NCBI GenBank assembly: GCA_019347575.1
Contig: JAHWKY010000018.1
Coordinates: forward strand, 1-64,000
Direction: 5' to 3'
From: Actinomycetota bacterium
GTDB lineage: Bacteria > Actinomycetota > Nitriliruptoria > Nitriliruptorales > Nitriliruptoraceae
Length of the DNA: 64,000 nt
Shown: positions 23,945-44,366 of the stretch, in pieces
Position numbering within the stretch: the first letter of the stretch is position 1
Layout: every line of letters starts with the position of its first letter
Made by a program: the position numbers and the translations under genes
Notes under the pieces: generated by a model
Database searches by the model: none
What the model was told of the DNA's origin: nothing
The model's input: only the letters and a program-made list of their open reading frames with translations

Positions 23945-24616
23945 TCACCCGATGTGGCCGCGGTGGACCTGCTCCTCGTCGAACGTGTTGCCCTCGGCGG
24001 GGATCGGGTGGGCTCTCAGGATCCGAGCCAGGTGCACCGTGTTGTGCGCCATCCACCGGCACGTGCGCTGCGTGTAGGCGTGGTCCTGCCCGCCTGCCTC
24101 GATGAACGATGGGCCGGGCCCTGCCGCACCGACCCAGTACGTGTCCGCGTTCGGCGGGATCGCCAGGCCGAGATGGCTGAGGTTGAACAGCGTGGTCTCG
24201 GCGGCGGCGTGCGCCCCGTCCTCGTTGCCGGTGACAACGACCCCGCCCACCTTGTTGTACAGCGGGTACTGACCCACCTCGTTGCGCTCGTTGTAGGTCC
24301 CGTCGAGGCGCTCGATGACCAGCTGCGCGACCGAGCCGCGCACGCCGAACCAGATCGGCGTCGCGATCACGAGGATGTCGCACGCCTTGACCTTCTCGAG
24401 GATCTGTGGCCACTCGTCACCCTCGCCCTCATCGGAGGTGACCCCGAACGGGATGTCGTGATCGACGACGCGGATCACCTCGGACGTGACGTTCATCTGG
24501 TCGTACCACGAGATGACCATGTCGACCAGTGCCTGGGTGTTGCTCACCTCGGGGGAACGCTTGAGCGTGCAGTTCAGGAACAGCGCTCGGAGCGAAACCG
24601 CTTCGATCTCAGCCAC
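23945..24616 (-). CDS. Flavodoxin-like NAD(P)H-dependent FMN reductase
   Basis: This 223-residue protein has a flavodoxin-like fold: strand LRALFLNCTLKRSP with the phosphate-binding turn, ATPIWFGVRGSVAQ for the isoalloxazine loop, and GGVVVTGNEDGAH. It belongs with the NADPH-dependent FMN reductase/WrbA-like group, which reduces quinones or flavins in the cytosol. The GTG start follows GGAGG. Two 27-bp repeats (24635-24696) lie in its leader. The DsrE-like selenoprotein gene is next upstream on the same strand, 156 bases away, so the two might share a transcript. Confidence 0.82.
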   Translation of the reverse strand: MAEIEAVSLRALFLNCTLKRSPEVSNTQALVDMVISWYDQMNVTSEVIRVVDHDIPFGVTSDEGEGDEWPQILEKVKACDILVIATPIWFGVRGSVAQLVIERLDGTYNERNEVGQYPLYNKVGGVVVTGNEDGAHAAAETTLFNLSHLGLAIPPNADTYWVGAAGPGPSFIEAGGQDHAYTQRTCRWMAHNTVHLARILRAHPIPAEGNTFDEEQVHRGHIG

Positions 24617-24634: not shown

Positions 24635-24696
24635 TCGTGCTACCGCTTCGCTACTTGAGCAGCTCGCGATCGTGCTACCGCTTCGCTACTGGAGCA
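24635..24696. repeat. Two tandem units of the GCTACCGCTTCGCTACT family
   Basis: A 27-bp unit beginning TCGTGCTACCGCTTCGCTAC occurs at 24635-24661 and, with one change (TTGAGCA to TGGAGCA), at 24670-24696, 35 bases apart start to start. It matches the 33-bp unit repeated four times at 38365-38496 (GCTACCGCTCCGCTACTTGAGC). The copies lie just upstream of the ribosome binding site of the flavodoxin-like gene. Confidence 0.75.
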
Positions 24697-24772: not shown

Positions 24773-25135
24773 TCAGATGCTCACGACCCGGTCGGCCGCG
24801 ACCACGGCTTCGGCGAAGTCCTTCGGGGAGATGAACCGTGCGTTCTTCCCCTCGAGATCGCTGTCGAGGACCCCACGGGCCCTCCCACAGCCACCTCAGA
24901 CGTAGACCGGGACCTCGTGCTCGATCACCTTGGACCACAGCTCCTCGAGCGGGGGCCACCCCACACCGTGCACGTGCTCCACGATGTCGTCCTTCATGAA
25001 GTAGGTGGCCTCCGCCAACAGACCGATCTGGGGCTGGTGACCAGCCTCGATCGCTCCGATCGCGCTCACGAACGGGATGCTCCCTCGAGTGGGATCATCC
25101 GATCCGTGACTCGTCGTGTACAGGATCGTCGCCAA
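24773..25135 (-). CDS. DsrE-family protein, probable selenoprotein (UGA = Sec80)
   Basis: Read through one in-frame TGA (24896-24898), this is a complete 120-residue DsrE/DsrF-like protein. It starts at a TTG five bases after AAGGAGGA. MATILYTTSHGSDDPTRG and the PPLEELW segment are typical of the family. After residue 79 (VPVYV) the TGA falls where relatives have Cys; the next residues are GGC, giving U-G-G-C, a redox UxxC motif. The frame then continues GRARGVLDSDLEGKNARFIS to a TGA at 24773-24775. Conservation after the TGA argues against a dead gene. A hairpin meeting bacterial SECIS rules follows (24866-24884). DsrE-like selenoproteins have been reported in other bacteria, as I recall. 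SelA/SelB/SelC genes are not in this window. The alternative is a Cys-to-stop mutation in a decaying gene. Confidence 0.8.
24866..24884 (-). promoter_or_regulatory. Candidate bacterial SECIS hairpin
   Basis: Read on the minus strand, GAGGGCCC pairs with GGGUCCUC preceded by G, forming an 8-bp stem (seven Watson-Crick pairs and one G-U) around a three-base loop GUG (24874-24876). The loop begins 19 nt after the UGA at 24896-24898 and its first base is G. Bacterial SECIS rules as I recall them are 16-37 nt to the loop, a loop of 3-14 nt and a G among the first two loop bases; all are met. The stem lies inside the coding region, as expected in bacteria. Confidence 0.75.
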
Positions 25136-25221
25136 GCGTCCTCCTTCCGCCGCCGGCAACCGGTCGAGCATCAGGCGGGCGGAGGCCGCTCGTCAAGGGG
25201 TTCGGTGGATCCGACTGGCGG

Positions 25222-38085: not shown

Positions 38086-38982
38086 CTACACCTCCGAGTA
38101 GTGGGGGAACCGGGCGGGATCCAGTGGGGCCCCGGGGGCCGGATCGAGCTGGTAGAGGTAGGGGTGCGGGGCACGATCGGGAGCCCAGCGGGCCTCCGGG
38201 GTCACGAAGCTGAGCGACCACGCGCGCCGGTGACGGTGGCTGCGGTTGGGCGGCGACGCGTGCCACACCCAGGGATCGTGGGCGAGCCCCTCCCCCGCCC
38301 CGCACGGCGCCGACTCGATGTCGGCCTCGCGCCCCGCGATGTCGATGGTGGGCAGCGCCTCGTGGGGTTGCGCTACCGCTCCGCTACTTGAGCGCTCGGG
38401 TTGCGCTACCGCTCCGCTACTTGAGCGCTCGGGTTGCGCTACCGCTCCGCTACTTGAGCGCTCGGGTTGCGCTACCGCTCCGCTACTTGAGCGCTCACCT
38501 CCGCGGTCGGCGCCGGGCACGAAGTCCGCGGGGCGTCGCTCCCCGAGCAGGTGGGTGCCCACCACGTAGCGCAGGCAGCCGTTGTCCTCGTCGGCGTCGT
38601 CGAGCGCGATCCACAACGTGACACCGAGGGGAGCATCGAGCGGCCAGTACGAGCGGTCCTGGTGCCAGCGGACCTCCTCACGGGTGCCGGGCGGCTTCCA
38701 CACGACGTGGTCCTGGAACAGCACGACCCGATCGACCCCGAGGACGCGTCGAGGGGCCTCGGCCACGGAGCTGGCCCCCAGCACCGCCGCGAACGCGGGC
38801 AGTCGGCGCCAGGGATCGTGACGGAGCACGCCGTAGGGCCCGTCCGGTACCGCGTCGGGCACGAACCCATCCAGCTCCGCGCGCAGGTCCGCGACGGTGG
38901 CGTCGTCGAGGACGCGGCCGAGCCGCGTGTAGCCGCGCTGCGCGAGCTCGCGGTCGGCGATCGAGGTGGTCGCTGCGCTCAC
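38086..38982 (-). CDS. PhyH-family Fe(II)/2-oxoglutarate dioxygenase with in-frame repeat insert
   Basis: This 298-residue protein is of the phytanoyl-CoA dioxygenase family, with the metal motif HQD (His107, Asp109) in RWHQDRSYWP and a distal His in the WVWHASPPNRSHRHRRAW region. Residues 163-206 are four copies of an 11-residue unit (ERSSSGAVAQP, registered on the DNA repeat at 38365-38496) inserted in frame between the two halves of the metal site. Without it the protein would be about 254 residues, near family size. It probably hydroxylates a lipid-like substrate. The GTG start is 84 bases after the hemY stop; the radical SAM gene follows 2 bases later. Confidence 0.85.
   Translation of the reverse strand: MSAATTSIADRELAQRGYTRLGRVLDDATVADLRAELDGFVPDAVPDGPYGVLRHDPWRRLPAFAAVLGASSVAEAPRRVLGVDRVVLFQDHVVWKPPGTREEVRWHQDRSYWPLDAPLGVTLWIALDDADEDNGCLRYVVGTHLLGERRPADFVPGADRGGERSSSGAVAQPERSSSGAVAQPERSSSGAVAQPERSSSGAVAQPHEALPTIDIAGREADIESAPCGAGEGLAHDPWVWHASPPNRSHRHRRAWSLSFVTPEARWAPDRAPHPYLYQLDPAPGAPLDPARFPHYSEV
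38365..38496. repeat. Four exact 33-bp tandem repeats inside the PhyH gene
   Basis: Four identical units of 33 bp tile 38365-38397, 38398-38430, 38431-38463 and 38464-38496. Each contains GCTACCGCTCCGCTACTTGA and the palindrome GAGCGCTC. Because 33 is a multiple of three, the array is translated as four 11-residue blocks. The same core occurs twice at 24635-24696 in a non-coding leader, so the unit is an interspersed element that has entered a gene. Confidence 0.92.
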
Positions 38983-43983: not shown

Positions 43984-43987
43984 ATGA

Positions 43988-44366
43988 GGACGAGTCGGGG
44001 TGTAAGCCGGATCCTGTCCCCGGCGGTGGTTGCCCGCCGCCGGGTGGCGACCATCCATCTGGGACGCCGGTCACCCGACGCCTCGTGCGGCCTACCTGGG
44101 ACGTGACGGGCGGGCCACCCTGTCCCTGCTTGGCCTTGCTCCAGGTGGGGTTTACCGAGCCGCCCCGGTCACCCGAGGCGCTGGTGGTCTCTTACACCAC
44201 CTTTCCACCCTTGCCTGTGCTGCCGGAGCAGCCATCGGCGGTCTGTTTCTGTGGCACTGTCCGCGTGTCACCACGCCTGGGCGTTACCCAGCACCCTGCC
44301 CTGTGGAGTCCGGACTTTCCTCACCGGAGCGCGAAGCTCCGGCGCGGCCGCCTCCCCGACTCGTCC
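43988..44366 (-). ncRNA. rnpB: RNase P RNA (class A)
   Basis: Read on the minus strand, the sequence has the hallmark core GAGGAAAGTCCGGACTCC followed by CAGGGCAGGGTG, and further along ACAGAAACAGACCGCC and the 3' GGATCCGGCTTACA. The ends pair: GGACGAGTCGGGG and its complement at 43988-44000 and 44354-44366 form helix P1. The length of about 379 nt is right for an actinobacterial class A RNA, the catalytic part of the tRNA 5'-maturation enzyme. A possible -10 (TACCCT) lies about 16 bases upstream on the minus strand. Confidence 0.97.

Follow-up and report, generated by a model that had tools for sequence, protein, structure and literature searches.

The gene and its reading frame

The window, by which we mean the whole 64,000-nucleotide stretch of DNA that was analysed, carries on its minus strand a gene of the DsrE family that is interrupted by an in-frame TGA (Table 1). 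The gene begins with TTG at 25135-25133, the in-frame TGA is codon 80, and the terminal TGA is at 24775-24773. Under the standard code, the open reading frame covers 24896-25171 and ends at the in-frame TGA after 91 residues. The sequence-only reading had held that an intact DsrE protein is obtained only when this TGA is translated, and the profile search bears this out: Pfam DsrE (PF02635) spans residues 4-119 of the readthrough protein (E 7.7e-11, 42.6 bits, cut-off 22.7), so there is homology on both sides of the in-frame TGA. The 40 residues past the TGA, which the same reading had called protein-like, are conserved in every close relative, up to a shared C-terminal strand. It had also described a U-G-G-C motif where relatives would have C-x-x-C; the motif does sit at the DsrE active-site cysteine, but the second half of that claim was wrong, as the close relatives carry Sec. 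From sequence comparison, the gene is almost certainly a genuine selenoprotein gene with Sec at residue 80.

Table 1. Features of the DsrE-family gene in the window.
Feature	Position	Strand	Basis
Predicted DsrE-family selenoprotein gene, 120 residues, TTG start, terminal TGA	24773-25135	minus	Pfam DsrE match across the in-frame TGA
Shine-Dalgarno-like AAGGAGG preceding the TTG start	25140-25146	minus	Sequence reading
In-frame TGA, predicted selenocysteine U80	24896-24898	minus	TGA there in all close relatives (protein similarity)
U80-G-G-C83, putative redox motif at the DsrE active-site cysteine position	24887-24898	minus	Alignment with YchN and Sulfolobus 3mc3
Predicted SECIS upper stem-loop, 8 pairs, loop GUG	24866-24884	minus	Fold, covariation, spacing, G23/U24 rule (PMC8659212)
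Extended fold including predicted lower stem	24853-24898	minus	Minimum-free-energy structure of the window sequence alone

Its neighbours in the window encode an NADPH-dependent FMN reductase (23945-24616), an alpha/beta hydrolase and a pterin dehydratase. When the genes beside the retrieved loci were clustered, no functional partner was recognised. The biggest of the clusters runs on the + strand and takes in part of the DsrE gene, namely its frame up to the TGA; the remaining clusters are antisense or common to near relatives.

Other features of the window are worth recording. Immediately 3' of the DsrE gene lie two copies (24637-24661 and 24672-24696) of a repeat about 25 bases long, GTGCTACCGCTTCGCTACTTGAGCA, which recurs as a diverged four-copy array at 38370-38493 with a 33-base period; the number expected by chance is 0. 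A 12-base core of the repeat is also found near fdhA (L009, L069) and on contig 13 (L070). A class A RNase P RNA lies on the minus strand at 43987-44363 (266.7 bits).

The hairpin after the TGA

Positions 24884-24877 pair with 24873-24866 to form the stem, which begins 11 nt past the TGA, and the GUG loop (24876-24874) lies 19 nt past it; these are exactly the positions that the sequence-only reading had claimed. Counting from the U of UGA, the loop bases are G23, U24 and G25. Bacterial SECIS elements are expected to start about 11 nt after the UGA and to have G23 and U24 in the apical loop (PMC8659212). The proposed fit to these rules stands for the spacing, G23 and U24, but not for U17, which is said to be essential in the E. 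coli SECIS (PMC8659212) and is missing from the window hairpin; this counts against the SECIS reading. A 51-nt fold has an energy of -31.6 kcal/mol, compared with -18.8 +/- 2.7 for shuffled sequences (z -4.7), and none of 200 shuffles was as low. Counting both strands, the window has 1235 TGA triplets. Two of them are followed by all eight pairs at this spacing, and adding the G at position 23 leaves just the codon-80 TGA. An Rfam search of the window had no match at the SECIS, and its sole matches were the RNase P RNA and one tRNA.

A comparison of relatives supports the SECIS, as the hairpin is kept through compensatory changes. Over 50 distinct sequences the eight stem pairs are 87% formed, versus 31-59% when the partner strand is slid by one to three bases. 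We counted 47 two-sided changes in the stem (18.9 in shuffles) and obtained a covariation score of 0.345 (0.141 in shuffles); on all three measures (pairing, two-sided changes and covariation), every one of 500 shuffles fell short of the observed value. A DNA pattern with positions 19-28 fixed supplied most of the 50 rows, which leaves the outer pairs, free in the pattern at 15-18 and 30-33, as the informative ones. Pair 18-30, for example, is C-G in 22 sequences, G-C in 18, U-G in 6 and A-U in 2. The codons under the loop (Ala-Arg-Gly/Ala) are GCC-CGT/CGG-GGG/GCG in 26 of the 26 TGA genes that were found by protein similarity, while Cys paralogues mostly have CGC-GGC there instead of GCC-CGK-GSG. 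Because the element is near-invariant in sequence (GCCCGKGSGG), the family lends itself to direct searches at the DNA level.

Relatives found by DNA pattern

We ran a 35-base DNA pattern that takes in the TGA, the codon of the second Cys and the bases of the loop on the contigs of named genomes, the genomes bearing relatives being largely MAGs. The pattern hit 119 stretches, of which 80 are listed, and all 81 matches in the listed stretches are DsrE homologues when the TGA is read through (E 3e-18 to 7e-57). Among the matches listed are MAGs of Actinomycetota, Chloroflexi, Acidobacteria, Rokubacteria, Planctomycetota, Deltaproteobacteria, Poribacteria, Gemmatimonadetes, Dormibacterota and others. 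The pattern had zero matches in viral contigs. Overall, the TGA and the hairpin are conserved in well over 100 related genes from at least ten bacterial phyla. The pattern set is preselected for TGA plus SECIS and is uninformative on Cys forms. SelB was found in 27 of 34 pattern-match genomes.

An actinobacterial case had been expected to be notable, and this expectation failed: the family is widespread in Actinomycetota and in other phyla. The closest relative of the window gene among the matches listed is a copy in an Acidobacteria MAG (71% identity), which in the tree is nearer to the window gene than any other actinobacterial copy among those matches. This suggests gene transfer between phyla, with branch support of 83-86, under the 95 mark.

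Relatives found by protein similarity

Searches by protein similarity took relatives irrespective of the TGA, and they are the sole basis for what we say about the absence of Cys forms. They covered three phylum samples, namely 396 genomes of the host phylum, 400 of Chloroflexota and 395 of the phylum to which the Desulfobacterales locus L110 belongs (about 1190 genomes). At residue 80 the relatives have TGA in the same codon, and the protein is conserved beyond it.

Host phylum. There are 27 TGA places in 26 of the 396 genomes. The near relatives that lack the TGA (L048, L062, L014-L016) have Ser at the Sec position and Ser three residues later.

Chloroflexota. We found 41 TGA places in the 400 genomes, and every match above 86 bits has the TGA. 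Fourteen regions near the boundary have TGA, Ser-x-x-Ser or C-x-x-C; the loci with C-x-x-C (L264, L265, L266, L268; 68 to 72 bits) belong to distant DsrE subfamilies.

Phylum of L110. The three close matches all have the TGA. More distant DsrE groups in this sample mix Cys with a few TGA forms. Three members of these distant groups (L211, L214, L221) have an in-frame TGA (U-V/I-P-C) beside relatives with Cys, suggesting that Sec was gained or lost more than once within the DsrE family.

In the three phyla and about 1190 genomes, protein similarity gave no Cys orthologue of the TGA clade. Since all close relatives across the three samples have the TGA, Sec is, on these alignments, the rule in the DsrE clade of the window gene. 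Its sister clade has Ser-x-x-Ser (L014:786-1145, L016:1486-1845, L048:1498-1857, L062:1495-1854, L259-L263, L267, L269), so both redox residues were either lost in it or never present. We also observed a second DsrE copy in genome G450 (L272, G450:C74) with two in-frame TGAs, one of them early in the gene and without the conserved hairpin sequence.

Selenocysteine machinery

The host assembly is 4.9 Mb in 120 contigs, with 98.8% completeness and 4.6% contamination. A check for selA, selB, selC and selD found the first three. tRNA-Sec scores 76.8 bits and is called by ARAGORN as tRNA-SeC with anticodon tca; SelA (396 bits) and SelB (63.6 bits) are encoded by adjacent genes on contig 26. A formate dehydrogenase gene adjoins selA/selB and has its own in-frame TGA, NQARI-TGA-HSS (L069:6478, minus strand). 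Its hairpin starts at position 15 after the UGA and has G23 and U24 in the loop, which is the same register as the DsrE hairpin.

The part of the check that failed is SelD, for which a profile search of the 120 contigs gave nothing above the cut-off. The best weak match (L066) looked like ThiL (thiamine-monophosphate kinase) when examined by eye. Since SelD is over the cut-off in 20 of the 26 related TGA-positive genomes, each carrying its own TGA, an assembly gap is the likely cause in the host; the alternative is a divergent gene.

SelB is enriched with the TGA gene in the host-phylum sample, where it is present in 21 of 26 genomes with the gene and 206 of 370 others (Fisher p 0.009). The control here is the 396-genome sample, which replaced hand-picked negatives that were uninformative as a control. 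Five of the 26 TGA-positive genomes have no SelB match, which counts against the selenoprotein reading; three of these five are at least 90% complete, but are in 220-470 contigs.

Fold and proposed function

The AlphaFold model of the 120-residue protein has a mean pLDDT of 97.1, and Foldseek matches it to YchN, DsrE, TusD, 3mc3 and 3pnx (E 4e-6 to 1e-4). Pfam DsrE is matched by 13 of the 13 members of family set A1. With the family consensus as query, residue 80 falls on the C-K-T-C motif of E. coli YchN and, in Sulfolobus 3mc3, on the YVC cysteine. Cys83 and Arg87, both encoded beyond the TGA, are invariant.

The product would be a small soluble selenoprotein of the DsrE/DsrF fold. Judging from the conserved parts, the UGA at codon 80 would be decoded by tRNA-Sec carried by SelB bound to the hairpin. 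The selenol at residue 80 would replace the active-site cysteine of known DsrE proteins, with Cys83 as the second thiol. Sec80 may then act as the nucleophile and attack an S-S, S-sulfane or peroxide bond; Cys83 would resolve the adduct to a selenenylsulfide, which a cellular thiol would reduce. A related archaeal DsrE is reported to transfer thiosulfate (PMC4175335), and this, together with the alignment of residue 80 with the cysteines of YchN and 3mc3, makes thiol/selenol redox or sulfur transfer the most likely chemistry by homology. We lean towards the redox role.

Alternative explanations

We considered three explanations that do without selenocysteine at codon 80. The TGA could be an ordinary stop, which would leave either a pseudogene or a functional product of 79 residues followed by untranslated sequence. 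The standard code does end the frame there, but conservation of the protein runs on past the TGA, through the invariant Cys83 and Arg87, in all close relatives, and the TGA itself is kept in well over 100 related genes, so we regard an ordinary stop as very improbable. If TGC (Cys) had been misread or misassembled as TGA, this would agree with the Cys that distant DsrE subfamilies have at this position. However, the same TGA, always with the hairpin, is in independent assemblies of many phyla, and no Cys orthologue turned up in the genomes searched by protein similarity; the TGA and hairpin shared by relatives refute such an error, and the chance we leave to it is negligible. We found no supporting point for a reassigned code, in which UGA would be an amino acid organism-wide and no selenocysteine would be involved. 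TGA terminates the window gene and many related genes, the genome has tRNA-Sec, SelA and SelB, and a reassigned code would leave the hairpin unconserved, yet the hairpin covaries. We give this next to no credence.

The explanation that deserves more weight accepts that Sec is inserted and differs on function. The protein could be mainly a selenium or sulfur carrier (a sulfurtransferase, DsrE/TusD-like) and not an oxidoreductase. U80 occupies the active-cysteine position of DsrE-fold proteins, and the characterised members transfer sulfur or thiosulfate (PMC4175335). On the other side, the retrieved loci have no recognised neighbour in common, be it TusA, Dsr, Hdr or another, and a U-x-x-C pair is what redox selenoproteins typically have (PMC13188914). 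We consider a carrier role a serious possibility, though the less probable one, and a redox selenoprotein is still the reading that we prefer.

A possible Sec-only subfamily

The clade of the window gene may be a separate Sec-only DsrE subfamily of ten or more phyla, with passage between phyla, no Cys form and a Ser-Ser sister, that has been largely overlooked because gene finders stop at UGA. We put this forward tentatively, as somewhat less than an even bet. Standard gene calls do end family members early, as they would the window gene at 24896. If the proposal is true, a Sec-only subfamily would be a selenoprotein function where cysteine does not substitute. With no Cys orthologue in the roughly 1190 genomes sampled and a sister clade that has Ser-x-x-Ser, the family is well suited to testing why some proteins retain selenocysteine.

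Comparison with known DsrE proteins

E. coli YchN (PDB 1jx7) and the archaeal DsrE3A-type protein (PDB 3mc3) share the fold, with an active or conserved cysteine at the place of U80. In YchN the U-x-x-C site reads C-x-x-C, and both proteins use Cys where the window protein has Sec; identity over the fold alignments to YchN and DsrE3A-type proteins is merely 15-19%. DsrEFH and TusBCD (PDB 2hy5, 2d1p) also have the DsrE fold, with the active residue in the same region as in the window protein. However, these are heterohexamers with DsrF/H or TusB/C, and we saw no such partner genes beside the window gene. Against the TusD equivalog TIGR03012, the window protein scores 12.9 bits, where the cut-off is 89.25.

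DsrE-like selenoproteins have been in the literature since 2005, in line with the remark of the sequence-only reading that they are reported elsewhere. Two DsrE-like UxxC sequences (PF02635) came from the Sargasso Sea (PMC1088965), one from the bacterial genomes of 2006, in Desulfovibrio vulgaris (PMC1794560), and 19 and 2 from the GOS data as 'DsrE 1' and 'DsrE 2' (PMC2398784); the type is also covered in a review (PMC13188914). These published proteins have the same Pfam domain, the UxxC motif and a SECIS just past the UGA, and we liken the window clade to the D. vulgaris and GOS representatives (WP_014524487.1, GOS DsrE 1 or 2) by their descriptions alone. The published sequences are few, whereas the window clade is common in Actinomycetota and Chloroflexota with no Cys form found, and its spread far exceeds the handful reported in the literature that we examined. 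We found no description there of the clade's breadth or of its lack of Cys forms, and these are the points of interest. The DsrE-like UxxC selenoprotein is already a known type, and the window gene is an added and very well supported member of it.
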